This document shows positions 35,047-51,431 of a stretch of 64,000 bases of DNA, piece after piece. The translations under genes were made by a program, and so were the position numbers. The notes under the pieces are model-generated. The model saw only the letters and a list, made by a program, of their open reading frames with translations. It was not told where the DNA came from and did not search any database. Each line of letters opens with the position of its first letter. Position 1 is the stretch's first letter. The stretch comes from Stutzerimonas stutzeri (GTDB taxonomy: Bacteria > Pseudomonadota > Gammaproteobacteria > Pseudomonadales > Pseudomonadaceae), in assembly GCF_000952685.1 (NCBI RefSeq), contig NZ_JYHV01000037.1, positions 620,001 to 684,000 of the forward strand, in the 5' to 3' direction.

Positions 35047-36045
35047 TCAGGACACGATCACCTGATTTTTGCCCAGACGCTTGGCCGTATACATGGCCGC
35101 GTCGGCGCGGGCGAACAGCGCGCTGAGGTCCGGGTCGCTGGCCCGGAGGTAGGTCACGCCAAGGCTGATGGTGACGCCGAAGCGCTGGCCGTCCGGGCTG
35201 GTGAAGACCAGCCGCTGGATTTCGCGCTGCAGGCGCTCGGCGATCTGCTCGGCGAGGTCTGGCTGGCAACCGGGTAGCAGCAAGGCAAATTCTTCACCGC
35301 CAATGCGGCCGAACAGGTCGCCACGGCGCAACACGGATGAACCGCACTGGGCCACGCGCTGCAACACCTGATCGCCCATCTGATGGCCATGGGTATCGTT
35401 GATCCGTTTGAAGTCGTCGATGTCCAGCAGCTGAAACGCCAGCGAGGTGGCGTATTGCCGAGCCAGGTCGAACTCACGCTGGGCGCATTCGAAGAAGTAG
35501 CGGCGGTTGCTGCTTTGAGTCAGCACGTCGACGGTGGCCAGACGCTGCAGCTCACCTTCGAGCTGCTTCTTTTCCGTAATGTCTTCGGCGATCCCGACAA
35601 TGATCGGCCCGCGCGAGTTGTCCGCATTGCGTGCGATGAAGCACTTGTCGCTAAGCCAGCGCAGCTGCCCGTCGGCGCGGATGATGCGATATTCGCGCGC
35701 TTCGACGGAGCCCTTTTCCAGCACTTCGAGCAAGCTCTGCTGCGCGTATTCCGAATCGTCCGGATAAATGCTGTTGCGCCACTCGCCGAAATCCGCCAGC
35801 AACAAAGCGGCCGAGCGACCGAACACCTGCTCGTACGCCGGGCTGACATAGATCATCTGCTGGGCTTGCCAGTCGAAGGCCCAGAGCACCGCGTTGACGG
35901 CACCCATGAGGGTACTGAACAGCTGCTCTCGCTCGCTGAGGCGCTCGACCTCGGCGCGCGCGTGCATCAAAGCCAACAAAGTTTGCGCCTCGGTCGGAGG
36001 CACAATGCCAGCCCCCACTTCGCTTCGCTGCTTCACGAAATTCAT
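35047..36045 (-). CDS. PAS-GGDEF diguanylate cyclase
   Basis: Cytoplasmic sensor that makes the second messenger c-di-GMP from two GTP. The protein (332 residues from the ATG at 36045; a GTG at 36072 is also possible) has one PAS domain (MYVSPAYEQVFGR-like core, IIVGIAEDITEKKQLE at its end, about residues 45-165) and a GGDEF domain with the active-site variant GGEEF. The inhibitory I-site RxxD is present exactly five residues upstream (RRGD then LFGRI), so product feedback is likely. It has no membrane segment. It is not in an obvious operon. Confidence 0.88.
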   Translation of the reverse strand: MNFVKQRSEVGAGIVPPTEAQTLLALMHARAEVERLSEREQLFSTLMGAVNAVLWAFDWQAQQMIYVSPAYEQVFGRSAALLLADFGEWRNSIYPDDSEYAQQSLLEVLEKGSVEAREYRIIRADGQLRWLSDKCFIARNADNSRGPIIVGIAEDITEKKQLEGELQRLATVDVLTQSSNRRYFFECAQREFDLARQYATSLAFQLLDIDDFKRINDTHGHQMGDQVLQRVAQCGSSVLRRGDLFGRIGGEEFALLLPGCQPDLAEQIAERLQREIQRLVFTSPDGQRFGVTISLGVTYLRASDPDLSALFARADAAMYTAKRLGKNQVIVS

Positions 36046-36185
36046 ACCTGCGTTCCGAAAGGCGCCAGGCACCAGCGGAGACCCGCAGGGGCAGCTGTCG
36101 CGTTAGCACCAGAATGCCCATCAGAGAGTGCCAGATGGGCAAAGTTCCAGTTCGCCCTCCCGTCAGTGATCGTGTCGATCGAAGG

Positions 36186-37376
36186 TCATGCCAGGGCGAC
36201 GGCTGGTCTTAATGAGTAGGTTTTCAGGTGCTCGGCAAACTCGCGTAGCGACTGGATACCGCTGGCTTCGGCGTCCTGAACCCATTGCTTGATCGCCGCG
36301 AGCATGTCATGCCCGTTGGCGCTGGTACGGGTCCAGATCTGCTGCAACGCCAAGCGCTGCTCGTAGATCACCCGCAGCGACTGGCTCTGTTCGAGGATCA
36401 CGGCGATACGCGCCTGTTGCTCGTGCTGCAGCAGGCTCGGCTCGCGCGACAGCAGCCGTTTGGCCCGGCGGAACTGATGACGCACCGATGCATCGGCGCG
36501 ATCCAGCTCCAGGCGCACCAACGGCTTGATGACCAATTTGCGGTACTGCGCCATGATCTGGAAGCGGTTGTTGAGAATAGCCATGGCACTGTCCATGTCC
36601 AGCTGATGCTTGGGCGTGACGCGATGGGCGATAGGCGCGGTGCGGTTCACCTTCGCCAGCCCGAACAGACTGAACAACTTGATCCAGGCCCAACCCATGT
36701 CGAATTCCCACTTGCGCACCGACAGCTTGGCCGAGTTCGGATAGGTATGGTGATTGTTGTGCAACTCTTCGCCGCCGATGAGGATGCCCCACGGCACTAG
36801 ATTGGTCGCCGCGTCGCGGCACTCGAAGTTGCGATAGCCCACAGCGTGCCCCAGCCCGTTGACCACCCCTGCGGCCCAGAGCGGGATCCAGATCATCTGC
36901 ACCGCCCAGACCGTCAGGCCCAGGACACCGAACAGCGCCAGATCGAGGCCGAGCATCAGCACGATGCCCAGGTTGGGGAAACGCGAATACAGATTGCGCT
37001 CGATCCAGTCGTCCGGACAGTTCTTGCCGTAGATGCGCAGGGTTTCTTCGTTTTTCGCCTCTTCCATATACAGCTCGGCGCCCCGCCGCAGGACCGTGCC
37101 CAGGCCCTTCTGCACCGGACTGTGCGGATCGTCCGGGGTTTCGCATTTGGCGTGGTGCTTGCGATGAATGGCGGTCCATTCGCGAGTGTTCATCGCCGTG
37201 GTCAGCCACAGCCAGAAACGGAAGAAATGCTTGAGCCCTGCGTTGAGCTCGAGCGAACGGTGAGCGGAATAACGATGGAGGTAGACGGTAACGGCAACGA
37301 TCGTCACGTGAGTCAAAAGCAGGGTGGCGGCGATCACCCCCCAGGCCGAAAGGTCGAGGAAACCGGTGTACCACAT
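36186..37376 (-). CDS. Membrane fatty-acid desaturase
   Basis: Acyl-CoA or acyl-lipid delta-9-type desaturase of the inner membrane. The 396 residues carry the three His boxes that bind the di-iron centre: HRYSAH (about residues 34-39), HRKHH (about residues 71-75) and HNNHH (about residues 206-210), between hydrophobic segments. A C-terminal region of about 130 residues (ADASVRHQFRRAKRLLSREP onward) is helical and of unknown role. Length and layout resemble Pseudomonas DesB-type enzymes, but the subtype cannot be fixed from sequence alone. A 26-bp interrupted palindrome lies about 95 bases upstream. Confidence 0.87.
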   Translation of the reverse strand: MWYTGFLDLSAWGVIAATLLLTHVTIVAVTVYLHRYSAHRSLELNAGLKHFFRFWLWLTTAMNTREWTAIHRKHHAKCETPDDPHSPVQKGLGTVLRRGAELYMEEAKNEETLRIYGKNCPDDWIERNLYSRFPNLGIVLMLGLDLALFGVLGLTVWAVQMIWIPLWAAGVVNGLGHAVGYRNFECRDAATNLVPWGILIGGEELHNNHHTYPNSAKLSVRKWEFDMGWAWIKLFSLFGLAKVNRTAPIAHRVTPKHQLDMDSAMAILNNRFQIMAQYRKLVIKPLVRLELDRADASVRHQFRRAKRLLSREPSLLQHEQQARIAVILEQSQSLRVIYEQRLALQQIWTRTSANGHDMLAAIKQWVQDAEASGIQSLREFAEHLKTYSLRPAVALA

Positions 37377-37469
37377 AGTTGTTGCAGCCTCGCAGCGAAG
37401 AGAAACACAGGCCGGCAATGCCAGCACCCGAACATTATCTGCTTATGGCGGCGTATTGCCGCACCCGCC

Positions 37470-37495
37470 CGTCGCAAGATATCGATTTTGCGACG
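37470..37495. promoter_or_regulatory. Interrupted palindrome upstream of the desaturase
   Basis: CGTCGCAA (37470-37477) and TTGCGACG (37488-37495) are perfect 8-bp inverted arms around a 10-base A+T-rich centre. The position about 95 bases before the desaturase start fits a dimeric repressor or activator site, for example a TetR-type lipid-responsive regulator. The binding protein is unknown. Confidence 0.55.
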
Positions 37496-37868
37496 AGGCC
37501 AAGGCCCGTCCGGCGGCCAGCTGCCGGCGCGAGCGCAACGGATGGCCGCCGTCGCCCGGTCGCGGCTGCGCTATGGACAGCTCTAGTCCGGCATTTGCAG
37601 CGTGTAGCCTGCAGATGCCACTCACCTGAGCCCGGTAAATGAGCCGCGAGAAGGGCTCGCACGGGGAAATTCTCGTCTGGCCGCGAAGTCGAACGCTGTG
37701 AAGCCTTGGGACGAAACCGCAACTGCGGGCGGCTGCGCATCGGCTCGGCCCGTTTTCGAACAGCTGCCCCGCATCAGCCGAACGTCAGCAACCCCGGGCT
37801 ATTCCGTCTGTAAGGCTATTTTTCGTGAGCGATGTGCCAGCATACCTGCAAGGTGGCAAACTGCTCGT

Positions 37869-37882
37869 TTCGAGCGCTCGAA
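37869..37882 (+). promoter_or_regulatory. 14-bp perfect palindrome before the signalling cluster
   Basis: TTCGAGCGCTCGAA is perfectly self-complementary and ends 11 bases before the GGAGG ribosome-binding site of the first response regulator. It could be an operator or a short 5'-UTR hairpin for the cluster. Confidence 0.45.
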
Positions 37883-37904
37883 GTATTGTTGTCGGAGGTC
37901 CCGC

Positions 37905-38291
37905 ATGACCGAGCTGAAACGGATTATGCACGTCGAGGACGACCCCTCCATCCAGGCGGTGGTCAAGGTCGCGCTGGAGATGATCGGTGGTTATCAGGTG
38001 CTGTCCTGCTCGTCCGGCCTGCAGGCCTTGGAGGAGGTTGAACGCTTCGTCCCCCACTTCATCCTGCTCGACGTGATGATGCCCGGCATGGGCGGCACTG
38101 AGACCCTGACCAAACTCGGCGAGCGGATTGACCTGGCACAGGTACCGGTGGCCTTCATGACCGCCAAGGTACAGCCCGGCGAGATCGAACATCTGCGCAA
38201 CCTCGGCGCGCGCGACGTCATCATCAAGCCCTTCGACCCGATGCGTCTGGCCAGCCAGATCCAAGCCATCTGGGACGCCGACGGCGATTAG
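37905..38291 (+). CDS. CheY-like single-domain response regulator
   Basis: 128-residue receiver domain alone, with acidic pocket HVEDD, phospho-acceptor Asp56 in ILLDVMMPGMGG, Thr in FMTAKV and Lys in IIKPFDP. It has no output domain, so it should relay phosphate or bind a partner. Its sequence is strongly similar to the regulator at 40725, including the shared FDP and LA-QI/L-N W ending, so the two are paralogs. GGAGG at 37894-37898 supports the ATG at 37905 over the longer open frame. It opens the nine-gene cluster ending with the glycosyltransferase. Confidence 0.88.
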   Translation: MTELKRIMHVEDDPSIQAVVKVALEMIGGYQVLSCSSGLQALEEVERFVPHFILLDVMMPGMGGTETLTKLGERIDLAQVPVAFMTAKVQPGEIEHLRNLGARDVIIKPFDPMRLASQIQAIWDADGD

Positions 38292-38334
38292 CCGTCATCG
38301 ACCAGCCCTCAGCCCAGCGAGAAAGGACCGCCAG

Positions 38335-40728
38335 ATGGAGTCACCGAAATCGATGCCCGCCCCCCGTGAGCTGTCCCGACTCGCTGCGCTGCTGCGCTAC
38401 GAGATTCTCGACACGCCGGACGAGTCCGCCTTCGACGATTTCGCCCAATTGGCTGCATACATCTGCGACACCCCGATCGCCCTGATCTCGCTGGTGGACG
38501 ACCATCGCCAGTGGTTCAAAAGTCGCATTGGTCTGGAGGTCAGCGAGACGCCACGGGACATCTCCTTCTGCACTCATACCATCGAAGGTCAGGGCATTTT
38601 CGAGATCGATGACGCGAGCCAGGATCAGCGCTTTCGCGACAACCCGCTGGTGACCGACGACCCGCACATCCGTTTCTACGCCGGCGCGCCGTTGACCACC
38701 CCGGATGGCTACAACCTCGGCACGCTGTGCGTGATCGACCGCCAGCCGCGTCAGCTCAGCGAGGCGCAACGCGGCGCCTTGGTGCGCTTGAGCCGCCAGA
38801 TCATGCGTCTGTTCGAGGAGCGTCTGCAGGCGCACCGCTATGCCGAGCAGGCAGCGCTGCAGCAGGCCCTGCTCAACAGCGCCGCGAGTGCGATGCTGGT
38901 CACCACCGCCGAAGGACGGATATCGGGGGTCAACCCGACGGCCGAGCGCCTGTTCGGCTATTCCGAGCAGATGCTGATCGGTCATCCACTGACCTCGGTA
39001 CTGTTTCCGCCGGCCGCGCTGGCCCGCCGCGCAGCCATCCTCAGTAACGAACTGGGTGAGCCCGTCGCGCCGGGGTTCGCCGTGCTGACCGCGCCGCTGC
39101 TCGAAGGGCGTCGCGAGATGCGCGAATGGCGCCTGCTGCATCGCAACGGCGACAGCGTGCCCGTACTGTTGAATGTCTCGGCGATCCATGACGAACACGA
39201 GCTGCTACGCGGCTACATCGTCAGCGCCTATGATCTGGCCCATCAGGAGCACTTGCAGCTACGTCTGCAGCAGATTGCCGCGCAAGTCCCAGGCATGCTG
39301 TTCCAGTTCTGCTGGAAGCCCGATGGCAACAGCTCATTCCCCTACCTCAGCGAAGGCGTCGAAGACATTTACGGGCTGGGCGCGGCCGAGATGGCGCCAA
39401 GCATTGGTCCGGTCTACGAACGGGTTCATCCCGAGGATCGCGAGCATGTGCTGGCGAGCATCCGCCACGCAGCCTCGACGCTCACGCCGTGGCATTTCGA
39501 GCACCGGATCAACCATCCGCGCAAGGGCTGTATCTGGGTCGAGGCGCGCGCCACGCCGATGTGTCAGGCAGATGGCTCGGTGCTCTGGCACGGGTTGGTG
39601 ACCGACATCACCGAGCGCAAAGCCGAGCAGCTGGAGCTGGACAAGCAGCAGGAAATGAATCGACGCCTACTTGAGGCGCTGTCCGAGGCCGTCGTGGCCT
39701 GCGATGCCGAAGGCAATCTGACCCTGTTCAATCACACCGCCCGACGCTGGCACGGGCTCGACGCGCAACGCCTTGCACCGGAACAGTGGCCGAACGTCTA
39801 CCGCCTCTACCAAGCCGACGGCGTGACGCCGATGGCTTACGACGAGGTCCCGCTGATGCGCGCGCTGCGTGGCGAGCAGATCCGCAACGTGGAAATGGCC
39901 ATCGTGCTGCACGGCAAGGCCCGCCATGTGCTGGCCAACGCCGATCCAATGTATGCATCCAATGGCCAGCAGAGCGGTGCGGTGGTGGTGCTGCATGACA
40001 TCACCGAACGCAAGCAGATCGAAAACCTGCAGCGTGATTTCGTTTCGACCGTCAGCCATGAACTGCGCACGCCGCTGACCTCTATCACCGCTTCGCTGGG
40101 GCTGATTTGCGGGCAGGTGATGGGCGAGGTGCCGGAGCATCTGCAGGAGTTGCTCGAGATCGCCCACCAGAACAGCAAACGCCTGAGCGCGCTGATCGAT
40201 GACCTGCTCGACATCGACAAGCTCAACGCCGGCAAGATGCGCTTCGAGTTTCAGCGGCAACCGCTGCAGCCATTGCTGGAGCAAGCCCTTCGTAGCAACC
40301 AGGGGTACGCCGAGAGCTATGCTGTCACTATCGAACTGCGCAGTTGTCCGGCCGTATTGATCGAGGTCGATACGATGCGTCTGGAACAGGTGTTGAGCAA
40401 TCTGTTGTCCAACGCGGCGAAATATTCACCGCCTGGTGAAACCGTTGAACTGTGGGCCGAGGCGATCGGAGAGCACAGGGTACGCGTAAGCGTGCAAGAC
40501 AAGGGACCGGGAATCGCCGATGCATTCCGCGCGCGGATATTCAGCAAGTTCGCCCAGGCGGACGCCTCCGATACCCGGCAACAAGGCGGCACCGGCCTGG
40601 GATTGGCCATCAGCAAGGAGTTGATCGAGCATATGGCCGGACAGATCGGTTTCGATTCGACACCCGGTGCAGGCGCCTGTTTCTGGTTCGAGCTGCCCTG
40701 CCATCCGCTGCACGAGCCTCGGACGTGA
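38335..40728 (+). CDS. GAF-multi-PAS sensor histidine kinase
   Basis: 797-residue soluble histidine kinase with no membrane segment. Order of domains: GAF (about residues 20-165, CDTPIALISLVDDHRQWFKS), PAS (about 178-290), a PAS with C-terminal PAC (about 300-425, ending in VTDITERKAEQ), a third PAS (about 435-560, ending VVLHDITERKQIE), HisKA with SHELRTPLTS (His575), and an ATPase domain with NLLSNAAKYS, DKGPGI and GGTGLGLAI. Its stop overlaps the next regulator's GTG (GTGA), so kinase and regulator are translated together. The cytoplasmic GAF and PAS domains suggest sensing of an internal signal. Confidence 0.9.
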   Translation: MESPKSMPAPRELSRLAALLRYEILDTPDESAFDDFAQLAAYICDTPIALISLVDDHRQWFKSRIGLEVSETPRDISFCTHTIEGQGIFEIDDASQDQRFRDNPLVTDDPHIRFYAGAPLTTPDGYNLGTLCVIDRQPRQLSEAQRGALVRLSRQIMRLFEERLQAHRYAEQAALQQALLNSAASAMLVTTAEGRISGVNPTAERLFGYSEQMLIGHPLTSVLFPPAALARRAAILSNELGEPVAPGFAVLTAPLLEGRREMREWRLLHRNGDSVPVLLNVSAIHDEHELLRGYIVSAYDLAHQEHLQLRLQQIAAQVPGMLFQFCWKPDGNSSFPYLSEGVEDIYGLGAAEMAPSIGPVYERVHPEDREHVLASIRHAASTLTPWHFEHRINHPRKGCIWVEARATPMCQADGSVLWHGLVTDITERKAEQLELDKQQEMNRRLLEALSEAVVACDAEGNLTLFNHTARRWHGLDAQRLAPEQWPNVYRLYQADGVTPMAYDEVPLMRALRGEQIRNVEMAIVLHGKARHVLANADPMYASNGQQSGAVVVLHDITERKQIENLQRDFVSTVSHELRTPLTSITASLGLICGQVMGEVPEHLQELLEIAHQNSKRLSALIDDLLDIDKLNAGKMRFEFQRQPLQPLLEQALRSNQGYAESYAVTIELRSCPAVLIEVDTMRLEQVLSNLLSNAAKYSPPGETVELWAEAIGEHRVRVSVQDKGPGIADAFRARIFSKFAQADASDTRQQGGTGLGLAISKELIEHMAGQIGFDSTPGAGACFWFELPCHPLHEPRT

Positions 40729-41114
40729 AGCCGCTGCGGCGAATCCTGCATGTCGAAGACGTGCCTTCCATCCGGGTGGTGACCCGGGTCGCCCTGGAAA
40801 AAATTGGTGGCTTCGAGGTGCTCAGCTGCGCCTCTGGCCAGGAAGCGCTGGATCAGGTCCAACACTTCGCCCCGGACATGATTCTGATGGACATGATGCT
40901 GCCGCGAATGAGCGGTATGGAGCTGCTGTGCCAGCTGGCGCAGCTGATCGACTTGCGGGCCACGCCGGTGGTACTACTCACCGGCCAGTCGCACACGCCC
41001 ACCGATCCGGAAGAATTCCGGCGGCTCGGTGTGCGCAAGATGCTTCACAAACCCTTCGACCCCTTACAGCTGGCGGCGCAGCTGAATGAAGTATGGAATG
41101 CTGAGCATGAATGA
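40725..41114 (+). CDS. CheY-like single-domain response regulator
   Basis: 129-residue receiver domain starting with GTG at 40725 inside the kinase stop. Asp56 in MILMDMMLPRMSG is the phospho-acceptor; Thr in VLLTGQS and Lys in MLHKPFDP complete the site. The third acidic residue seen in its paralog at 37905 (VEDD) is Val here (VEDV), but the essential pair is retained. It is likely the immediate partner of the preceding kinase. Its last 8 bases overlap the start of the Hpt-GGDEF gene. Confidence 0.87.
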   Translation: MKPLRRILHVEDVPSIRVVTRVALEKIGGFEVLSCASGQEALDQVQHFAPDMILMDMMLPRMSGMELLCQLAQLIDLRATPVVLLTGQSHTPTDPEEFRRLGVRKMLHKPFDPLQLAAQLNEVWNAEHE

Positions 41115-42741
41115 CAGCGCCAACGAAGCGTTGCACGACAAACTGCAAGCTCTGAACGAGAAGTTTGCCGACCGCCTGGAAGAGGAATTGGCGGCCCTCG
41201 AACAAGGTGCCGAGCGGTTGTTGCTAATTCATGAGCAGGAGCAGCGCCGGCAGATGGTGATTGATCTTCACCAACGTCTGCACCGCCTGGCGGGCACGGC
41301 GGGCACCTTCGGCTTCACCGCTCTGGGCGAGCAGTCGCGGTTGCTCGAGCAGCGTGCCGATTGCTGGCTGAACGCGGCCAGGCCCAGCGGTCAGGCACTC
41401 TCCGCGCTGACTCAGGCCATCCACCAACTGGGCGCTGCCGCGCAGACCGGAACCCTCGGCCAGGCCGAGCCATCGGAGAACCACGAACAATTGCCGGCAG
41501 GCTGCCGCATTTATCTACTCGAAAAAAATGTCGAAGCCGGACAGGAAATGTGCCGAACATTGAGCAATTTCGGCTACGACGTGCTGCTGTTTCCGGAACC
41601 CCACCTTCTGCAGACCGCTATCCAGGGGCAGTTGCCAGACGCCCTGATCGTCAGCCAGCACGAGGCTGAGCTCGAGGAGGTGGACAGGCTGCAGCAGACC
41701 CTGGAATCGCCGTTGCCCCTGCTGGTGATCGGCCATCACGTCGATTTCGACAGTCAGTTGGCGGCCGTACGCGCCGGCGCTAAAGGCTATTTCACGCGTC
41801 CGCTGGACGTTACCCAGCTGGAAAACAAGCTGGAAAACTGCCTCAACCTGCAGCTAAGCGAGCCATACCGAGTGCTGATCGTCGATGACGATACCGATCT
41901 GGCGGCGCGTTACAGCCTGGTGCTGCGCAATTCGCAGATGCTGGTGCAGACCCTGACCGATCCCAGCCAGCTGTTCGAGGTCATGCGGGCGTTCAATCCC
42001 GAGGTGGTGCTGCTCGACATGAACATGCCAGATTTCACCGGGCTCGAACTGGCCCAGATGATTCGGCTCAATGACGAGTGGTTGCGCGTGACGCTCATCT
42101 ACCTCTCCGGCGAAACCGACATCAACCGGCAAATGGCGGCGCTGCTCAAGGCGGGCGACGATTTCATCACCAAACCCATCGGCGACGGCGCCTTGACCGC
42201 CGCGGTGCTTTCCCATGCACAGCGAGCCCGCGCGCTGAGTATGGCGCTGTCGCGCGACAGCCTCACCGGGCTGCTCAAACATGCCGATATCAAGGAGCAG
42301 GTCGCCTTGGAAGTGGAGCGCGCGCTGCGCAGCGGCAAACCCGCGAGCGTGGTCATGCTCGATCTCGACCATTTCAAGCAGGTCAACGACCAGTACGGCC
42401 ACGCGGCCGGTGACAATGTCATCCGATCGCTGGCCAACCTGATGCGTCAGCGCCTGCGCCGCATCGACAGCCTCGGCCGCTATGGTGGCGAGGAATTCGT
42501 CGCGGTATTGCCTGACTGCAACCTGGAGCAGGCCAGGCAGATCTTCGATGAAATCCGTCAACGCTTCTCAGCGCTACCCTTCCATGCAGATTCCAGGGTG
42601 TTCAGCGTGTCGCTGAGTGCCGGCATCAGCGAGACCGACGGCCATTCCAGCTCATCGGCATTGCTGGAGCGAGCCGATCAGGCCCTCTATGCCGCCAAGC
42701 ACAACGGCCGCGATCAGGTTCAGATCGCGTTACCGGGCTAA
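41107..42741 (+). CDS. Hpt-receiver-receiver-GGDEF diguanylate cyclase
   Basis: 544-residue signalling protein. It begins with an Hpt domain (HRLAGTAGTFGF, phospho-His59), then a degenerate receiver (about 134-255) that lacks the acidic pair (IYLLEKN) and the phospho-acceptor Asp, then a canonical receiver (about 257-375, VLIVDDD, Asp304, Lys in FITKPIG), and a GGDEF domain with active GGEEF (460-464) and the I-site RRID five residues before it. Phosphate can thus pass to this protein through Hpt or receiver and set c-di-GMP production. The ATG at 41107 overlaps the previous gene; Mets 9 and 21 bases earlier are alternatives. Confidence 0.9.
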   Translation: MNDSANEALHDKLQALNEKFADRLEEELAALEQGAERLLLIHEQEQRRQMVIDLHQRLHRLAGTAGTFGFTALGEQSRLLEQRADCWLNAARPSGQALSALTQAIHQLGAAAQTGTLGQAEPSENHEQLPAGCRIYLLEKNVEAGQEMCRTLSNFGYDVLLFPEPHLLQTAIQGQLPDALIVSQHEAELEEVDRLQQTLESPLPLLVIGHHVDFDSQLAAVRAGAKGYFTRPLDVTQLENKLENCLNLQLSEPYRVLIVDDDTDLAARYSLVLRNSQMLVQTLTDPSQLFEVMRAFNPEVVLLDMNMPDFTGLELAQMIRLNDEWLRVTLIYLSGETDINRQMAALLKAGDDFITKPIGDGALTAAVLSHAQRARALSMALSRDSLTGLLKHADIKEQVALEVERALRSGKPASVVMLDLDHFKQVNDQYGHAAGDNVIRSLANLMRQRLRRIDSLGRYGGEEFVAVLPDCNLEQARQIFDEIRQRFSALPFHADSRVFSVSLSAGISETDGHSSSSALLERADQALYAAKHNGRDQVQIALPG

Positions 42742-42910
42742 TCGCCTCGTCGCGCGAAACCAGGCGAACCGCTGCGCAGTCCGGGACTCCAACTACACTG
42801 TATTAAATCTTGCAGCCACGTCGCACGCCCCAGGTTTGCAGCGCTGGACGTAGCTAAAGCCGATTCCATTGCGGTCCATGCCTTTTCAACCGGCGGAAGG
42901 AGTATCGGTT

Positions 42911-45781
42911 TTGCATGCAAAACCCGCTATACGCTGGCATCCGCTCGCCTTCCTGTTTGCGTTCATGCTGCTCGTCGCCCTCGGCTGGCAGGGCAAGCGA
43001 ACCACAGAAGCAGTGCTGAAAACCAACCAGTCCGTCAGTTACAGTCTGGAAGTCATCACGGCCATCCAGGCCATGTTTTCCTCATTGCAGGACATCGAAA
43101 CCGGGGCCCGTGGTTTTGTCCTGACCGGCGTACCCGACTATCTGGAACCCTACGAGCGCGGGCTGAGGCAAGTCGAAGCACGCCGTCGTGAATTGCAGAC
43201 GCTGCTCGATAATCGCGAATATCCCAACCGTCACTGGTTCGAGCAGCTCGACCGGAACGTGGCCGAGCGCCTGGTGATCGCCGCCGGTAACATCCAGACA
43301 CGCCGCAACGCTGGACTGCAAGCTGCCGCCGAGCACTCGCGCCTGTCCGGTGGCAAGCAGGTCATGGACAATTTACGAGCGCTCCTCGGGGCGGTCGAGC
43401 AGCGCGAGCGAAAACAGCTCGCCGCCGCCAACCGCGCATTGGCCGAGACGATCGAGCACAGCAGGCGGCAGGCTTTGATCGGCAGCCTGACGGTGGCAGG
43501 CTTGTTCTTCGCAGCCCTGTGGGCGACTCGCCGCAATTTGCAGATCCGCTACGCACTGGCGGACAAAGCGCAGGCCGGGAAGGCGCGCCTGGATGCCCTG
43601 TTGCAGGCCATCCCCGACAACCTGTACGCCATCGACAAGCAGCAGCGAGTCACCGCGTTGTCCCAGGCGAGCGACAGTCGCAGCCCGGCACCCAGTGCCA
43701 TCGAGCCGCTGCTGTTGGGCCTGCTACAGCAGGCGGACGACGCCCTGGCGTTCTCGCGAACGACCTGGTGTGAAGCGGATAGCCAGCGCACCTTCGAGGT
43801 GCGCCTGGCGCCCACCGGTCTTGGCGATCACCTGGCAATCGCCCGCGACGTCACCGCACTCCAACGCAGCCACGACAAACTCGAAGACCAGAAGATGTTC
43901 CTGCGGCGAGTGGTGGACACCGATGAGAACCTGATTTTCGTACGCGATGCGCAGGGCCGCTTCCTGCTGTGCAACAACGCCTTCGCCGCCCTGCTCGACA
44001 GTCATCCGAGTGCCATCGAGCGATGCAGAGCCGAGGACGTTATTGGTGCCCAGCGGGTGCTGCCCCTGTTGCAGGGTGAAATGGAGCTGCTCAGCGGCAA
44101 CGGCGAACTGCGCATCACCGAGGTCGGGCTGACCGATGCACAGGGCCATGAGCGTTGGTTGCAGGTGGTCAAGCGCCCCATGACGATGTCCAGCGGCGCT
44201 TGCCACGTCGTCACCGTGGCGGTCGATATGTCGCTCAGGCGACGCATGGAACAGATGAAGGCCGAATTCATCGCCACCGTCAGCCACGAGCTGCGCACAC
44301 CGCTGACCGCCATTCGCGGCGCACTCGGGATGCTGGTCGGCGGCATCGGCGGCGAGATCGGCGAAGGGACGCGTCCACTGCTCGATATCGCCCACAAGAA
44401 TAGCGAGCGCCTGGTGCGCCTGATCAATGACATTCTCGATATCGAGAAGCTGGAAGCTGGACGCTTGCGGTTCCACTTCAGCCATTGCGATGTACAGGCG
44501 CTGATCGAACAGGCCCTGCTCGACATCAGGCCCTACGCGGACGATTACGCTGTCAGCCTGAAGCTCGTTCAGCCTGCCGATCCGCTCCGGGCCGAGGTCG
44601 ATCTAGACCCCGACCGCTTTGCCCAGGTGATGGCCAATCTGCTCTCCAATGCGATCAAGCACTCACCGGCCGGCGGCGTGGTCAGCGTCGAGCTGCACAG
44701 CGACGACGGCAACCTCGAGATTGGCGTGCAGGACCAGGGCCAGGGTATTCCAGAGGCGTTCCATGCGCGCATCTTCGAGCGTTTCGCCCAGGCCGATTCC
44801 TCCGATGCGCGCAGACGTGGCGGCACTGGGTTGGGCTTGGCGATCACCCGGTCGCTGGTGCACCAGATGCGCGGTCAGATCGGCTTCGACTCGCAGGAAG
44901 GCCAGGGCACGCGTTTCTGGCTACGTCTGCCACGAGTACGGACGCCGGCAATCAGTCCGACGATGGCGGAGCGGGCATTGCCGGACGACGGGACGAGCCG
45001 GCCAGCAGCGCGCATTCTGATACTTGAACCCGATGCGCCCGCCGCTGCGCAGCTGGCGAATATCCTTGAGCAGCACGGCTACACGACATTGCTCGCCGAA
45101 ACCGCCGCCCAGGCCCGTGCGCTGTTGGCCGAATACAGCGTCCAGGCACTGACCCTTAGCCCCGCGCTGAACGATGAGGACAGCATCGCTTTCCTGCAGA
45201 ACCTGCGCAGCCAGAACCTCTATCGGCATTTGCCAGTGCTGATCGTCAGCCTGCAACCGCAGCGCCGCGACAATGACGACGGCACCCTGCGCGGCGGTGC
45301 GGTGGGCGTAATCGACTGGCTGCACAAGCCGGTCGATCCGTCACGGGTCATGGAGGTGGTGCGTGCCTGTCTCGATCCCCGGGGAGCCCGCGCGCGCATC
45401 TTGCATGTCGAGGACGACGAAGATCTGCAGGCGTTGCTGGTCCGATTGGTCGCACCCCTGGACATCGAGTTGCAGTGCGCCGCCAGTCTGGCCGAAGCCC
45501 GCCGCCTGCTGGACCGCCAGCACTTCGACCTGGCGATCATCGACCTGCTACTGCCCGACGGTGATGGTAGCGAACTGTTCGATCAGTTGGCTCAGACCCT
45601 GCCACCCCCGCCGGTGATCATCTTTTCCGCGCTGGATTCGCCTGTGCAAGACAGCCGCCTGGCGCTGCGCCAGCTGGTCAAGACCCGCCATGACGGCAAA
45701 GAGCTTGCCGAACTGATCCAGCAGTTGCTTCAACACTGGCCGCCTGGTCAGGCCCCAGATACCGAAGAGGTCAACGCATGA
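42911..45781 (+). CDS. CHASE3 hybrid histidine kinase with two receivers
   Basis: 956-residue membrane kinase: membrane segment (about 9-26), CHASE3-type periplasmic domain (about 30-170, with LQDIETGARGFVLTG), second membrane segment (about 188-208), PAS-like region, HisKA with SHELRTPLTA (His459), ATPase domain (GGTGLGLAI), a pseudo-receiver lacking the phospho-acceptor Asp (LTLSPALND), and a C-terminal receiver with Asp878 (IIDLLLPDG). AAGGAG at 42897-42902 is spaced eight bases from TTG 42911, which decides the start; the in-frame ATG at 42878 and TTG at 42869 have no ribosome-binding site. Its stop overlaps the next regulator (ATGA). Confidence 0.88.
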   Translation: MHAKPAIRWHPLAFLFAFMLLVALGWQGKRTTEAVLKTNQSVSYSLEVITAIQAMFSSLQDIETGARGFVLTGVPDYLEPYERGLRQVEARRRELQTLLDNREYPNRHWFEQLDRNVAERLVIAAGNIQTRRNAGLQAAAEHSRLSGGKQVMDNLRALLGAVEQRERKQLAAANRALAETIEHSRRQALIGSLTVAGLFFAALWATRRNLQIRYALADKAQAGKARLDALLQAIPDNLYAIDKQQRVTALSQASDSRSPAPSAIEPLLLGLLQQADDALAFSRTTWCEADSQRTFEVRLAPTGLGDHLAIARDVTALQRSHDKLEDQKMFLRRVVDTDENLIFVRDAQGRFLLCNNAFAALLDSHPSAIERCRAEDVIGAQRVLPLLQGEMELLSGNGELRITEVGLTDAQGHERWLQVVKRPMTMSSGACHVVTVAVDMSLRRRMEQMKAEFIATVSHELRTPLTAIRGALGMLVGGIGGEIGEGTRPLLDIAHKNSERLVRLINDILDIEKLEAGRLRFHFSHCDVQALIEQALLDIRPYADDYAVSLKLVQPADPLRAEVDLDPDRFAQVMANLLSNAIKHSPAGGVVSVELHSDDGNLEIGVQDQGQGIPEAFHARIFERFAQADSSDARRRGGTGLGLAITRSLVHQMRGQIGFDSQEGQGTRFWLRLPRVRTPAISPTMAERALPDDGTSRPAARILILEPDAPAAAQLANILEQHGYTTLLAETAAQARALLAEYSVQALTLSPALNDEDSIAFLQNLRSQNLYRHLPVLIVSLQPQRRDNDDGTLRGGAVGVIDWLHKPVDPSRVMEVVRACLDPRGARARILHVEDDEDLQALLVRLVAPLDIELQCAASLAEARRLLDRQHFDLAIIDLLLPDGDGSELFDQLAQTLPPPPVIIFSALDSPVQDSRLALRQLVKTRHDGKELAELIQQLLQHWPPGQAPDTEEVNA

Positions 45782-46167
45782 GTGATTCCGGAAGCCAGCG
45801 CATTCTGATGGTGGAGGACGAAGAGGACATCGCATTCCTCATCCGCTTCATGCTCGAGCGCCATGGGTTCAGCGTCGAGCATGCGGTCGACGGTCGTCAG
45901 GCCCTGGAGAAACTGAGCAGCTCCAGCCCGCCCGACCTGACGCTGATGGACATCATGTTGCCCTATCACGATGGCCTGGAGCTGATCGAACGGCTGCGCG
46001 CCCAGCCCGGCTGGGAACGCGTTCCGGTACTCATGCTCACGGCCAAGGCGCGTGAAGTGGACATCGTCCGGGCGCTGGAACTGGGCGCCGATGATTACGT
46101 AACCAAACCCTTCCAACCGGAGGAACTGCTGGCGCGTATCCGTCGCCTGCTGAGGAGGCCACGATGA
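45778..46167 (+). CDS. CheY-like single-domain response regulator
   Basis: 129-residue receiver with MVEDEED pocket, Asp58 in LTLMDIMLPYHDG, Thr in MLTAKA and Lys in YVTKPFQPEELLARI. It resembles the receiver half of OmpR-type regulators but ends before any DNA-binding domain. Start and stop overlap both neighbours by 4 bases (ATGA), so it is translated in step with the hybrid kinase and the outer-membrane gene. It presumably receives phosphate from the hybrid kinase and acts on the export or synthase proteins. Confidence 0.88.
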   Translation: MSDSGSQRILMVEDEEDIAFLIRFMLERHGFSVEHAVDGRQALEKLSSSSPPDLTLMDIMLPYHDGLELIERLRAQPGWERVPVLMLTAKAREVDIVRALELGADDYVTKPFQPEELLARIRRLLRRPR

Positions 46168-47294
46168 ATCGCCTGCTTCTGGCGCTGCCCTTGTGCCTCT
46201 TGCCGTCGTTGACGCTGGCGGATGTCGCGACCGCTCAACGGCAGGTCGCGGCACAGCAATTCGATGCCGCCGGGGCGACCCTTGAAACCCACCTGGCCAG
46301 CCAGCCCGATGACAGCGAAGCACAATTTCTGCTGGCCCGCGTTCGTGCCTGGCAGGGCAACCCCGAGCAGGCGCTGCCCCTTTACGAGCAGTTACTGCAA
46401 CGCGAGCCGAACAATGCCGACTATCTGCTCGGGCAGGGCCAGGCGCTGCTCTGGGCCGGAGATCCGCAGACAGCGTTGACGGCTCTCGAGCGGGCCGCCG
46501 AGATCGCGCCGGATTATGCCGACATCCAGCAGGTCATACAGCAGGCCCGTGCCGCGCTGACATCACCGGCAACCGCGACCGCGCCACCTGTCATAGCGCC
46601 GACGCAGCGCCGCCATGAGCTCGAACTGTCCGCCCGCCAGGACTGGCTGGACAGCGGTTTCGACAACTGGCGTAGTCAGCGCCTGGATTATGCCTCGACG
46701 CAACCGGAAGGCCTCGGCTGGTACGGTGCCCTGCTGCGCGAACAGCGCTTCGGCGAATGGGATCAGGGTGTCGAGGCGGGTGCGGTGATCGCCCTGGATG
46801 ACAACTGGACCCTCCAGCCCGAGATCGGCTACCAGCCATCGCCCTACTTTCTGCCTGAATGGCACGCCGATCTACGCCTGCAACGACGGCTACCGGCGGG
46901 CTTTCTCGGCGCCGCCAGTATCAGACGCACCGAGTACGAAACCACCCGAGTCGATCGGCTGGCGCTCAGCGCCGAGCGCTACTGGAACTCGTGGCGCGCC
47001 GGCTACACGCTGAACGTGACCGACGTCGCCAACGCCGGTACGCCGATCGGCCACGACTTGGCGCTGGATTACTACTACGCCGGGCTCAACTACGCGGGGC
47101 TTCGCCTGACAGTCGGCGAGGAAGAAGCCGTCGAGGAGCAACGGTTGATCACCAGCGACGTGCGCGCCCTCAGCCTGCAAGGCCGGCACTGGCTCGACAA
47201 CCGGTGGGCACTCACCTGGGAGATCGGCCATCACCGCCAGGGTGACTATTACACGCGGCGTTGGCTGCAGCTCGGCGTCCGCCATGCTTTCTGA
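46164..47294 (+). CDS. TPR and YaiO-type outer-membrane beta-barrel protein
   Basis: 376-residue exported protein: signal peptide (MNRLLLALPLCLLPSLTLA), a periplasmic helical part with about three TPR units (ATLETHLASQPDDSEAQFLLARV, then LYEQLLQREPNNADYLLGQ and LERAAEIAPDYADIQQV, residues 25-125), a Pro/Ala linker, and a C-terminal barrel from about residue 150 rich in alternating aromatic strands and ending with a terminal Phe (LQLGVRHAF), the BAM recognition pattern. This matches the YaiO family. TPR plus barrel is the layout of polysaccharide exporters such as PgaA and BcsC, so it is a candidate export pore. Confidence 0.82.
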   Translation: MNRLLLALPLCLLPSLTLADVATAQRQVAAQQFDAAGATLETHLASQPDDSEAQFLLARVRAWQGNPEQALPLYEQLLQREPNNADYLLGQGQALLWAGDPQTALTALERAAEIAPDYADIQQVIQQARAALTSPATATAPPVIAPTQRRHELELSARQDWLDSGFDNWRSQRLDYASTQPEGLGWYGALLREQRFGEWDQGVEAGAVIALDDNWTLQPEIGYQPSPYFLPEWHADLRLQRRLPAGFLGAASIRRTEYETTRVDRLALSAERYWNSWRAGYTLNVTDVANAGTPIGHDLALDYYYAGLNYAGLRLTVGEEEAVEEQRLITSDVRALSLQGRHWLDNRWALTWEIGHHRQGDYYTRRWLQLGVRHAF

Positions 47295-48402
47295 ATTGGA
47301 TTGCCCGATCTGGCTTTGCGAGGTGCCGCGCATTGCCTGGCTGGCCATATGGCCGGAAGACGGCATGCTGCAATTGGCGCTTTATTGCGCCGTGGGCCTG
47401 GGTGGCCTGACCTCTCTGGTGATGCTCCAGGTCTTGCTGCTCGGTGAGGTCGCCAGGCGCCGTTCAGCACGGCGGCAATCGTTCAACGAGCAATGGCGAC
47501 CTTTCTTCGCGCTGTGCAGCCTCGGTGACGAGCTACCCGAGCCGGTGCCTGCGCTGCCTCGCAATCGCCAGCTGTGGTTTCTGCTGCAATGGAACCGCAC
47601 CCAACTGCAATTGCGCGGTACCGCGCGCGAGCGCATGAATCGCGCCCTCGTCGCCCTTGATATGGACCGCCACGCCCTGGGATTGCTGCGCGGGCGGGTG
47701 CGAAGCAAGCTGATCGGGCTGACCTGCCTGCGCCATCTTGCCGATCCCGCCCACTGGGAGGCGGTGCAGTCGCTGTTGATGAACCGCAACGCGATCGTCT
47801 CACTGACGGCGGCACAGACGCTGATCGCCATGGATGCGCCGCGTGCGATGCAACTTATCCTGCCGGCGGCCGTTGCGCGTTCCGACTGGGCGTTGCCACG
47901 CCTGGCCAGTCTCTGCCAGCAGGCCGGTGAACAGGCCGTGACCCTGCCCTTGCTGATCGCCCTTGCCGGTTCTGAAGATCCACGCCGCGAGCGCTTGGTG
48001 GGTTTGCTGGTCTATGGCGATCCCCGTCACGCAGCGCCGTGGGCGCGCGCGCGTCTGGAGGAAGACGCCGCGCCGGAGCAGTTGCAGGTCGCCCTGCGTT
48101 GCCTCTGCGAACTGGGCGATCCGCGTGATCGAGCGCGGCTGTTACGCGCGCTGCAGCATAGCCATGCCGAGGTGCGCCTGGAGGCGCTGCGGGCACTGCA
48201 CAACCAGGCGCGCAGCGACGACAACGCCCTGTTCATGCCGCTGCTGAGCGACAGCAACTGGTGGGTTCGACAAGCCGCCGCGGACAGCCTGGCGGCGCTG
48301 CCCGGCACCACACCGGAACGTCTGGAGCAACTGCTCGATCAGGTGCAAGACCGCTACGGTCAAGACGCACTGCGCCGAGCCATCGCGGAGGTGCGGCGGT
48401 GA
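47284..48402 (+). CDS. HEAT-repeat inner-membrane protein
   Basis: Roughly 372 residues: an N-terminal membrane segment (LALYCAVGLGGLTSLVMLQVLLLG) and a large cytoplasmic alpha-solenoid of HEAT-like repeats (for example LIGLTCLRHLADPAHWEAVQ, LQVALRCLCELGDPRDRARLL, LEALRALHNQAR, WVRQAAADSLAALPG). Such solenoids scaffold protein complexes. The ATG at 47284 overlaps the barrel gene by 11 bases; an in-frame ATG at 47365 with GGAAG upstream is another good candidate. The stop overlaps the glycosyltransferase GTG (GTGA). Position between exporter and synthase suggests an adaptor that links the synthase to the regulators. Confidence 0.75.
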   Translation: MLSELDCPIWLCEVPRIAWLAIWPEDGMLQLALYCAVGLGGLTSLVMLQVLLLGEVARRRSARRQSFNEQWRPFFALCSLGDELPEPVPALPRNRQLWFLLQWNRTQLQLRGTARERMNRALVALDMDRHALGLLRGRVRSKLIGLTCLRHLADPAHWEAVQSLLMNRNAIVSLTAAQTLIAMDAPRAMQLILPAAVARSDWALPRLASLCQQAGEQAVTLPLLIALAGSEDPRRERLVGLLVYGDPRHAAPWARARLEEDAAPEQLQVALRCLCELGDPRDRARLLRALQHSHAEVRLEALRALHNQARSDDNALFMPLLSDSNWWVRQAAADSLAALPGTTPERLEQLLDQVQDRYGQDALRRAIAEVRR

Positions 48403-49799
48403 GCGGCGATTGGCTGTGGTGGCTGCAACTGGGATTCATCCTCTATTTTCTACTGCTCAACGGTATGTACCTGCTGCTCAATATGTTGTCGATGGCCAGC
48501 CTGACGGGCTACATCCGCCAGCGCACCGAAACCGGCGAAATCGCGCCCTACCTCGGTGTCGAGCCGCCGGTGTCGGTGCTGATGCCGGCCTTCAACGAGG
48601 AGGCGACGATCCGCACCTCGGTGCGCTCGATGTTGCAGTTGCAGTATCCCGAGTTCGAAGTGGTGGTGATCAACGACGGCTCGAAGGACAACACCCTTGC
48701 CGTACTGATCGACGAGTTCGAGCTGGTGCCGCATCCCGAGCCACTGCGCCAGGCCGTCGCTCATCAGCCGGTCGCGACCATCTATCGCTCGCGCCGCTAT
48801 GGCAATCTGCGCGTGATCGACAAGGCCAACGGTGGTAAAGCGGACGCGCTCAATGCCGGCATCAACGCCGCGCGTCACGGCTTGTTCTGCGGCGTCGACG
48901 CCGACTCCATCCTTCAGCGTGACAGCCTGCTGCGCGTGGTGCAGCCGTTTCTGGAAGACGAGCGCACCGTGGCGGCAGGTGGCACCGTGCGCATCGCCAA
49001 CGGCTCGCAAGTGCGCGGCAGCTTTCTGATCCGTGCCGGCTTACCAAGCAACTGGCTGGCACGCTTCCAGATCGTCGAGTATTTGCGCGCCTTTCTCTTT
49101 GGCCGCCTCGGCTGGTCGCCGATGAACGCAGTGTTGATCATTTCCGGCGCCTTCGGCCTGTTCGACAAGGAGCGGGTCATGGATGTTGGCGGCTATCGCA
49201 CCGACACGGTCGGCGAGGACATGGAACTGGTGGTGCGGCTGCATCGCTATCACCGGGAAAAGCGCATTCCCTATCGCATCCGCTACCTCCCGGATCCGAT
49301 CTGCTGGACCGAGTGTCCAGAAGACATCGGCACCCTGGGGCGCCAGCGCAGCCGCTGGCAGCGTGGGCTGGCGGAAAGCCTGACCCGCCACGCTCGCCTC
49401 GCGTTCAGCCCGCGCGGAGGCACGCCGGGCTGGCTGGCCTGGCCATTCATGGCGCTGTTCGAGTGGCTGGGGCCGCTGATCGAGCTGGTCGGCTATGGCT
49501 TCATGATCGGTGGTTTCATGCTTGGCGCGGTCTCCTACGCGGCGCTGGCGACCTTCCTGCTGGTCGCCATCGGCATGGGCATTCTGTTGTCGGTGAACGG
49601 GCTGCTGCTGGAAACCATGTCGTTCCGCGTCTATGAGCGGCGGCGCGACATGTTGAGGCTGTTTCTCATGGCCGTGCTGGAAAATTTCGGCTACCGCCAG
49701 TTGAATACACTGTGGCGCTGCCGTGGGCTATGGCAATGGTTTTCGCGGCGCAAGCATCAATGGGGCGCGATGCGCCGCAGCGGTCGTTGGGGGCAGTAG
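48399..49799 (+). CDS. GT2 family processive glycosyltransferase
   Basis: 466-residue membrane glycosyltransferase of the hyaluronan/poly-GlcNAc/cellulose synthase superfamily. An N-terminal membrane helix pair precedes the GT-A domain: VSVLMPAFNEEATIRTSVRS, VVVINDGSKDNT, DxD as Asp167-Ala-Asp169 in GVDADS, catalytic Asp274 in GEDMEL, and the QRSRW motif (316-320) of processive enzymes, followed by several C-terminal membrane helices. No PilZ domain is visible. The GTG start overlaps the HEAT gene stop. It should polymerise a sugar at the inner membrane; the sugar cannot be predicted. Confidence 0.88.
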   Translation: MSGDWLWWLQLGFILYFLLLNGMYLLLNMLSMASLTGYIRQRTETGEIAPYLGVEPPVSVLMPAFNEEATIRTSVRSMLQLQYPEFEVVVINDGSKDNTLAVLIDEFELVPHPEPLRQAVAHQPVATIYRSRRYGNLRVIDKANGGKADALNAGINAARHGLFCGVDADSILQRDSLLRVVQPFLEDERTVAAGGTVRIANGSQVRGSFLIRAGLPSNWLARFQIVEYLRAFLFGRLGWSPMNAVLIISGAFGLFDKERVMDVGGYRTDTVGEDMELVVRLHRYHREKRIPYRIRYLPDPICWTECPEDIGTLGRQRSRWQRGLAESLTRHARLAFSPRGGTPGWLAWPFMALFEWLGPLIELVGYGFMIGGFMLGAVSYAALATFLLVAIGMGILLSVNGLLLETMSFRVYERRRDMLRLFLMAVLENFGYRQLNTLWRCRGLWQWFSRRKHQWGAMRRSGRWGQ

Positions 49800-49817
49800 G
49801 CAGGTTGGAGCTGGAAG

Positions 49818-49892
49818 CGTAGGGTGAATCACGCCCCATCGATCCACCGTAACGAACTCAAGGTGGATGTAAAAAGCGACATCCACCCTACG
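49818..49892. repeat. Dispersed palindromic repeat, copy 1
   Basis: The 75-bp unit begins CGTAGGGTGAAT and ends ATCCACCCTACG, with an inner GATCCACC/GGTGGATG pair, so it can fold into a long hairpin. A second copy with the same ends and the shared block GATGTAAAA-GCGACATCCACCCTAC is at 56444-56530. It is flanked by GGAGCTGGAAG (from 49806) and CTTCTAGCTTCTAGC (49902-49916), members of the same repeat family as 19242-19297. Confidence 0.82.
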
Positions 49893-49937
49893 GCTTCTTT
49901 ACTTCTAGCTTCTAGCTTTCGACTTCTAGCCGCTCCA

Positions 49938-51431
49938 TCAAAGCTTGATCCAGGTGGCCTTCAGCTCGGTGTATTTGTCGAACGCATGCAGGGACTTGTC
50001 GCGGCCGTTGCCGGACTGCTTGAAGCCCCCGAACGGCGCGGTCATGTCGCCGCCGTCGTACTGGTTGACCCAGACGCTACCGGCACGCAATGCCTTGGCG
50101 GTCAGGTGCGCCTTGGACAGATCCGCCGTCCACACCGCCGCGGCAAGGCCGTAGGGGGTATCGTTGGCGATGGCCACGGCTTCGGCCGCGGTGTCGAAAG
50201 TGATCACCGACAGCACCGGACCGAAGATCTCTTCCCGGGCGATCTTCATGGCATTGCTGACGCCATCGAAAATGGTCGGTTCGACGTATAGTCCGCCAGT
50301 GTCCTGCAGGGTCCGCTGGCCACCGATCAGCACTTGGGCGCCATCATTGCGCCCCGCCTCGATGTAGCCGAGCACGGTATCGAGCTGCTGGGTGTCGACC
50401 AGGGCGCCAACGTTGGTGGCCGGGTCCAGCGGATTGCCCGGCTTCCACCCCTTGAGCGCCTCGACCACCAGCGGCAGGAAGCGCTCCTTCACTGAGCTCT
50501 CGACCAGCAGGCGCGAGCCGGCGGTGCAAACCTCGCCCTGGTTGAAAGCAATGGCACTGGCCGCCGACTCGGCAGCCGCCTGCAGGTCCGGCGCATCGGC
50601 GAAGACGATGTTCGGGCTCTTGCCGCCCGCCTCCAGCCAGACGCGTTTCATGTTCGACTCGCCCGCGTAGATCATCAGCTGCTTAGCGACCCGGGTTGAG
50701 CCGGTGAACACCAGTGTGTCGACGTCCATGTGCAGCGCTAGCGCCTTGCCGACCGTATGACCATAACCGGGCAGCACGTTGAACACACCTGGCGGGATGC
50801 CGGCTTCGATGGCAAGTTGCGCCACGCGGATCGCGCTCAGCGGTGATTTCTCGGAGGGTTTGAGTACCACCGAGTTACCGGTGGACAACGCCGGGCCGAG
50901 TTTCCAGCAGGCCATCATCAGGGGGAAATTCCAAGGCACGATGGCTGCCACCACGCCGACCGGCTCGCGGGTAACCAGGCCCAGCTGATTGTGCGGGGTG
51001 GCCGCCACTTCATCGTAAATCTTATCGATGGCTTCGCCGGACCAACGCAACGCCCGCGCCGCACCGGGAATGTCCACGCCCAGGGCATCGCTGATCGGCT
51101 TGCCCATGTCGAGGGTTTCCAACAGCGCCAGCTCTTGCGCATTGGCTTCCAACAGATCGGCGAAACGGATCATCACGGCCTTGCGCTTGGCCGGCGCCAG
51201 CCGCGACCAGACGCCGGATTCGAAGGCCATGCGCGCGCTGATCACGGCACGATCGGCATCAGCCTCATCGCAGCTCGCCACTTGCGCCAGTACCCGCCCG
51301 TCGACAGGGCTGATGCAGTCGAAACTGGCTCCAGCCGTGGATGCCGTGTATTCGCCCTGGATGAAGGCCCGGCCTTCGATGTGCAGATCGCGAGCGCGCT
51401 GTTGCCAGTCGGCAAGTGTCAGGGTGGTCAT
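49938..51431 (-). CDS. kauB: Aldehyde dehydrogenase, gamma-glutamyl-aminobutyraldehyde type (KauB/PuuC-like)
   Basis: NAD(P)-dependent aldehyde dehydrogenase of 497 residues, best fitting KauB/PuuC, which oxidises aminobutyraldehyde and its gamma-glutamyl form in polyamine breakdown. Motifs: VPWNFPLMMACWKLGPALSTG, FTGSTRVAKQLM cofactor region, general-base Glu in WLEAGGKSPN and nucleophile Cys in FNQGEVCTAGSR (near residue 300), then EEIFGPVL. The start at 51431 is the Met matching the family. It is divergent from an omega-aminotransferase, an arrangement that echoes PA5312-PA5313 of P. aeruginosa as I recall it. Exact substrate is inferred. Confidence 0.82.
   Translation of the reverse strand: MTTLTLADWQQRARDLHIEGRAFIQGEYTASTAGASFDCISPVDGRVLAQVASCDEADADRAVISARMAFESGVWSRLAPAKRKAVMIRFADLLEANAQELALLETLDMGKPISDALGVDIPGAARALRWSGEAIDKIYDEVAATPHNQLGLVTREPVGVVAAIVPWNFPLMMACWKLGPALSTGNSVVLKPSEKSPLSAIRVAQLAIEAGIPPGVFNVLPGYGHTVGKALALHMDVDTLVFTGSTRVAKQLMIYAGESNMKRVWLEAGGKSPNIVFADAPDLQAAAESAASAIAFNQGEVCTAGSRLLVESSVKERFLPLVVEALKGWKPGNPLDPATNVGALVDTQQLDTVLGYIEAGRNDGAQVLIGGQRTLQDTGGLYVEPTIFDGVSNAMKIAREEIFGPVLSVITFDTAAEAVAIANDTPYGLAAAVWTADLSKAHLTAKALRAGSVWVNQYDGGDMTAPFGGFKQSGNGRDKSLHAFDKYTELKATWIKL

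Follow-up and report, generated by a model that had tools for sequence, protein, structure and literature searches.

Introduction

Synthase-dependent exopolysaccharides, such as those of the Bcs, Pga and Nfr systems, are usually discussed as being controlled by cyclic diguanosine monophosphate (c-di-GMP). The general signature of their secretion is a membrane family 2 glycosyltransferase (GT2) with DxD and QxxRW motifs, together with an outer-membrane barrel carrying tetratricopeptide repeats (TPR). In Escherichia coli, NfrB is activated locally by DgcJ (PMC8669469). Here, a stretch of 64,000 nucleotides from Stutzerimonas stutzeri (assembly GCF_000952685.1, contig NZ_JYHV01000037.1, positions 620,001 to 684,000; hereafter the window, from whose first letter coordinates are counted) was analyzed, in which nine plus-strand genes at 37905–49799 encode phosphorelay proteins, a TPR-YaiO barrel, a HEAT-repeat protein and a GT2, that is, both components of the general signature. 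A sequence-only reading had proposed a regulated exopolysaccharide system in which phosphotransfer sets local c-di-GMP. The exopolysaccharide-type set with its HEAT protein stands, while c-di-GMP as the core logic was not supported in the form proposed. The unit of interest is the HEAT–GT2 pair with a lone receiver, in bacteria and archaea, rather than the nine-gene Stutzerimonas cluster. We consider it fairly probable that the core genes make up a system for synthase-dependent exopolysaccharide secretion with HEAT as an obligate co-subunit and phosphorelay control through the receiver REC3, to which a cyclase block was added in Stutzerimonas.

HEAT Protein as Constant Partner of the Synthase

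The GT2 gene (48399–49799; PF00535, PF13641) encodes a processive-type membrane synthase with the two motifs that the sequence-only reading had pointed out, DAD at residues 166–168 and QRSRW at 315–319. Its best named NCBIfam model is PgaC/IcaA (TIGR03937), matched with 144.9 bits, far under the cut-off of 422.3, and the CelA/BcsA catalytic model TIGR03030 gave 47.2 bits with a cut-off of 699.1. Directly upstream lies the HEAT gene (47284–48402; PF13646/PF02985), coding for 372 residues with one N-terminal transmembrane helix followed by an alpha-solenoid. Its start is most likely ATG 47284, since this Met is found in aligned relatives and the seeming N-terminal extension overlies the 3′ end of the YaiO gene.

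Whole-genome sampling covered Pseudomonadota, other phyla being represented by plasmid records. In the genus sample, 24 of 37 genomes carry HEAT, each with REC3, YaiO and GT2 adjacent, and in the 13 genomes without HEAT this GT2 is absent as well, no GT2 in them scoring above 88 bits versus 918–992 in the positives tested. Across 299 Pseudomonadota genomes, GT2 scores split into two groups, 13 genomes with 249 bits or more and 4 genomes with 119 bits or less; a HEAT open reading frame lies directly upstream of GT2 in all 13 of the former and in none of the latter. The HEAT profile drew on several of these tested loci, with L147, L148, L151 and L152 outside it, and in the proteins of these four Pfam detects HEAT independently. 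Plasmid records split likewise, at least 250 bits against about 107–160 bits, with a HEAT-type gene upstream in 12/12 inspected GT2s of the stronger group (counting Emticicia, whose HEAT match of 24.6 bits is under the cut-off) and 0/8 of the weaker ones inspected. The carriers are Halosolutus, Salinirubellus, Haloarcula, Mesorhizobium, Devosia, Erythrobacter, Legionella, Deinococcus, Paenibacillus, Planococcus, Bacteroides and Emticicia, so that the set spans haloarchaea, Bacillota, Deinococcota, Bacteroidota, alphaproteobacteria and Legionella. The window HEAT protein as a single query found no match in the plasmid records; this type of search is too weak, because GT2-led searches found HEAT genes in the same records. 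HEAT and GT2 are thus inseparable, and the co-occurrence of YaiO, HEAT and GT2 in other genomes, on which the sequence-only reading had staked its interpretation, was found.

In a tree of 50 GT2 sequences, the 33 HEAT-linked proteins all fall on one side of a branch, which received 83 in the Shimodaira–Hasegawa-like approximate likelihood ratio test (SH-aLRT). On the other side lie E. coli PgaC, YaiP, NfrB and BcsA and local paralogues. HEAT linkage requires one change on this tree versus a mean of 14.3 after shuffling. The window GT2, with HEAT directly upstream, lies inside the branch, of which HEAT is the constant partner. To regard HEAT as a functional substitute for PilZ and BcsB, as the sequence-only reading suggested, would go beyond this partnership. 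A single origin of the HEAT-linked branch is favored, short of proof because of long branches and moderate support.

The structure model of the window HEAT protein (predicted local distance difference test, pLDDT, 86.8) consists of a long helix at residues 27–80, with one predicted transmembrane segment at about 35–53, and an alpha-solenoid at 93–371. A transmembrane segment near the N-terminus is present in 27/29 homologues and is in most cases followed by Lys/Arg residues; by the positive-inside rule, the solenoid is therefore predicted to be cytoplasmic, on the same side as the GT2 catalytic domain. Residues R298, D323, V328 and R329 are conserved in 27–28 of the 29 homologues, a pattern that is partly the generic HEAT consensus. 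Fold comparison of the model returned generic repeat solenoids alone (alphaRep, importin-alpha, armadillo) and no functional lead.

Barrel and Lone Receiver

Upstream of HEAT, the gene at 46164–47294 encodes a TPR and YaiO outer-membrane beta-barrel (TPR_19), a candidate polymer exporter. It belongs to the YaiO family, with 97.1 bits for PF19413 (cut-off 23.9) and 149.9 bits for TIGR04390 (cut-off 32). A TPR barrel of YaiO type accompanies HEAT–GT2 in 26/28 diderm clusters and in 0/5 of those from haloarchaea and Bacillota; for a few clusters, e.g., in Deinococcus, the TPR part alone was recognized in the barrel protein. Conversely, YaiO adjoins HEAT–GT2 in 9 of the 11 YaiO-positive genomes of the phylum sample, the exceptions (G984 and G928) having a weakly related GT2 alone nearby, as in E. 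coli. For most YaiO barrels sampled, a concrete set of partners can thus be named. The pairing of an inner synthase with an outer TPR-YaiO barrel, as in exopolysaccharide secretion, is supported as had been anticipated, now with HEAT as its obligate partner.

REC3 (45778–46167; PF00072, 108.8 bits) is the core stand-alone receiver, without an output domain and with the catalytic residues E13, D14, D58, T88 and K110. A lone receiver is found in 24 of the 33 HEAT–GT2 clusters, three haloarchaeal ones included, and the full phosphorylation site is kept in 23/28 receivers examined. Kinase or Hpt genes often flank these clusters.

In the mechanism that we propose, the inner-membrane GT2 would polymerize and translocate the glycan, with HEAT as an obligate co-subunit anchored beside it by the single N-terminal helix and its solenoid in the cytoplasm. 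TPR-YaiO would carry the chain across the periplasm and outer membrane, which would explain its absence from organisms that lack the latter. A neighboring kinase or Hpt protein would phosphorylate REC3, which must act on a protein because it has no output domain. The likeliest target of phospho-REC3 would be the HEAT solenoid, through which GT2 would be switched; this is the most economical model because, apart from GT2, no cytoplasmic partner other than HEAT is constant. The second signaling block, with its diguanylate cyclase, was added in Stutzerimonas, and its c-di-GMP input would be a local extra.

The alternative that survives best, although we regard it as rather unlikely, is that HEAT is an assembly or stability factor for GT2, or a link to the periplasmic and outer half, while kinases and receivers control something else, e.g., transcription or motility. 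It gains from the 9/33 clusters in which HEAT–GT2 persists without a nearby lone receiver, including Bacillota (e.g., Planococcus), Deinococcus, Bacteroides and Legionella, because of which HEAT must also have a receiver-independent role. Against it stands the lone receiver at the same place in the other 24, without DNA-binding or enzymatic output.

Stutzerimonas Upstream Block

All nine genes, with the order and domains of the sequence-only reading, were confirmed with Pfam and NCBIfam. The first is REC1 (37905–38291; PF00072, 82.9 bits), a stand-alone CheY-like receiver that opens a Stutzerimonas-specific block. It is followed by HK1 (38335–40728), a sensor kinase with a weak GAF domain, three PAS domains, HisKA and HATPase, assigned from Pfam and synteny, then by the stand-alone receiver REC2 (40725–41114; PF00072, 78.6 bits) and by the diguanylate cyclase (41107–42741), composed of Hpt, a degenerate REC, a second REC and GGDEF, of which Pfam recognizes Hpt, REC and GGDEF. 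The kinase HK2 (42911–45781) is a CHASE3-PAS-HisKA-HATPase hybrid with a degenerate REC and a further REC, and leads into REC3. As read from the sequence, the phosphoacceptor Asp is missing from the first of the two RECs in both the GGDEF protein and HK2. The GGEEF and RxxD motifs of the cyclase appear intact by eye.

Stop/start overlaps were read at six junctions, not the five counted previously: HK1/REC2 (GTGA), REC2/GGDEF (8 nt, the cyclase ATG at 41107 overlapping the REC2 stop), HK2/REC3 and REC3/YaiO (ATGA each), YaiO/HEAT (11 nt, at ATG 47284) and HEAT/GT2 (GTGA, at GTG 48399). Gaps separate REC1 from HK1 (43 nt) and GGDEF from HK2 (about 130–170 nt), because of which the cluster may form two transcription units. 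The HK2 start is uncertain among TTG 42869, ATG 42878 and TTG 42911, the last of these behind AAGGAG. A sigma-70 scan found no promoter site, and Rfam gave no match within 36000–51000 of the window. Just upstream, across a desaturase gene, a PAS-GGDEF gene was read from its translation on the minus strand (35047–36072); it may add to regional c-di-GMP signaling.

Synteny with 18 records named as Stutzerimonas (or formerly Pseudomonas), both flanks being shared, places the window in a genome of this genus. Of 21 named Stutzerimonas loci, 19 have REC1-HK1-GGDEF in synteny with the core, so the cluster is more than a chance grouping; in the two exceptions, the block is cut by a contig edge (L055) or missing (S. 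nitrititolerans L063, which keeps HK2-REC3-YaiO-HEAT-GT2). REC2 is the least conserved slot, with 46–51% identity where detected. Outside the genus, CHASE3 kinase-REC-YaiO-HEAT-GT2 occurs without the upstream block in two sampled f37-family genomes (L065 and L066; identity to the window 83 and 79% for GT2, 51 and 46% for HEAT), and one f44-family genome has kinase-REC-REC-YaiO-HEAT-GT2 (61% for GT2, 29% for HEAT). The outer four genes (REC1, HK1, REC2 and Hpt-REC-REC-GGDEF) are therefore a Stutzerimonas addition, and the CHASE3 kinase, lone receiver, TPR-YaiO, HEAT and GT2 are the core, which is also carried by further families of the order.

These distributions bear on a further alternative, less likely still, in which the phosphorelay acts through the cluster's own cyclase and local c-di-GMP turns on the synthase, as for BcsA, PgaCD and NfrB. 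The syntenic GGEEF protein, which looks active and carries Hpt and REC domains, would fit it, and the action of DgcJ on NfrB (PMC8669469) provides a precedent for such local control. However, the cyclase is absent from S. nitrititolerans L063 and from the other-family clusters L065, L066 and L067, and a PilZ or MshEN receptor domain is found in none of the nine proteins. Since the core also occurs without the block, the cyclase is accessory and outside the wider core. On this point the sequence-only reading did not hold in its stated form: neither S. nitrititolerans nor the other core-bearing families have the cyclase and the three genes that accompany it, while the lone receiver beside YaiO-HEAT-GT2 is widely kept.

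Strength of the HEAT–GT2 Model

That GT2 instead glycosylates a lipid or a glycan of the surface (lipopolysaccharide, glycolipid), YaiO being a modification-related barrel, is improbable: the PgaC model is matched far under its cut-off, but the QxxRW and DxD motifs are typical of processive synthases, the TPR-barrel context resembles PgaA/BcsC/NfrA (with weak TPR matches), and the barrel is lost in organisms without an outer membrane.

Besides this small chance of another GT2 role, several points weigh against the exopolysaccharide model with HEAT as co-subunit and REC3 as switch. The structure model of GT2 reached a pLDDT of 42 and was discarded, the alignment being too uniform (85–95% identity), which leaves the HEAT–GT2 interface without structural support. 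Pairwise distances of HEAT and GT2 in the 33 clusters correlate with r = 0.81, which speaks for the pair, but shared descent alone could produce such a correlation. The SH-aLRT of 83 for the HEAT–GT2 clade comes from a quick method, with thin outgroup sampling. Finally, the nine clusters without a nearby receiver mean that receiver control is not universal.

With these points taken into account, it is conceivable, though we hold it only tentatively, that the pair defines a cross-domain synthase family, from haloarchaea to Bacteroidota and Pseudomonadota, with an obligate membrane-anchored HEAT co-subunit and switched directly when a lone receiver, once phosphorylated, docks on the solenoid, c-di-GMP not being needed. 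Two-component signaling would directly set polymer synthesis if HEAT is what the receiver acts on. The HEAT–GT2 combination also provides a two-gene marker for unannotated matrix systems, archaeal ones included.

Neighboring Genes and Predicted Polymer

In a haloarchaeal locus (L133, 6519–9493), REC-HEAT-GT2 is followed by a sugar-phosphate nucleotidyltransferase gene and glmS, neighbors that, together with PgaC/IcaA as the closest named model of the GT2 (far under its cut-off), hint at an amino-sugar polymer; for the GT2 product in general, a HexNAc-type polymer would be a guess. On a Legionella adelaidensis plasmid (L139, 1–8082), YaiO-HEAT-GT2 lies without a receiver between a nucleotide-sugar dehydrogenase and epimerases. 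Because of these sugar genes on the one hand and the glmS hint on the other, the polymer probably varies among lineages.

In Paenibacillus (L132, 725–3784) and Planococcus (L138, 688–2754), a large protein without a Pfam match precedes HEAT–GT2 and may take the place of the exporter in these Gram-positive bacteria; Planococcus also has a CotH-family gene. In one gammaproteobacterial genus (L109, 10538–13577, and L111, 4018–7142), the HEAT–GT2 cassette is adjoined and faced by a TPR protein and a further GT2 that is PgaC-like by its tree position, an arrangement that looks like a pairing of two exopolysaccharide systems.

Comparison with Known Systems

No description of HEAT with YaiO, GT2, exopolysaccharide or receiver was found in the open-access literature, to which the search was confined, so the system is apparently undescribed, as the sequence-only reading had supposed. 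Two candidates for identity were set aside. The S. stutzeri MJL19 "sea" polymer, which with bcs serves as a comparison system in this species, is unlikely to be the same: the main text of the report carries no locus tags, and its authors equate "sea" with the A1501 "pel" cluster (PMC12125118). The Xag/sfz stalk clusters are likewise small and GT2-centered, but their gene set is different, with BcsB-like and XagB/C/D-like genes, and a HEAT protein does not appear in the cluster descriptions (PMC8250860, PMC4643136).

E. coli yaiO-yaiP also places a YaiO barrel near a GT2 gene, but without HEAT or a receiver, and YaiP lies outside the HEAT–GT2 branch. In E. coli K-12, yaiX, between the two genes, is split by IS2 (L173, 4845–6873). 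Bcs cellulose systems share the inner GT2 and outer TPR-barrel, whereas the nine-gene cluster has no PilZ, BcsB or BcsZ. Separately, the genome of the window encodes a BcsA-like cellulose synthase, whose C-terminus resembles PilZ, and an OpgH-like protein, both judged by eye (L001, L003; G000:C26:563240, G000:C17:87026).

With NfrBA, the N4 glycan receptor system of E. coli, the cluster shares a GT2 with a large outer-membrane exporter, a minimal gene set and local control (PMC8669469). NfrB, however, has its own MshEN c-di-GMP domain, absent from the cluster GT2, falls outside the HEAT–GT2 branch on a long branch, and is encoded in an operon without HEAT or a lone receiver. The Pfam search that found neither PilZ nor MshEN among the nine proteins also found no BcsB, PgaB or cellulase domain, in agreement with the sequence-only reading. 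Pga/Ica (E. coli pgaABCD) likewise has a membrane GT2 synthase and a TPR-barrel exporter and provides the best named match for the GT2. The PgaB/IcaB deacetylase and PgaD are not among the nine cluster proteins, the rest of the genome not having been searched. It further differs in that the cluster GT2 scores under the PgaC/IcaA cut-off, E. coli PgaC lies outside the HEAT–GT2 branch, and the synthase is partnered here by a HEAT protein.
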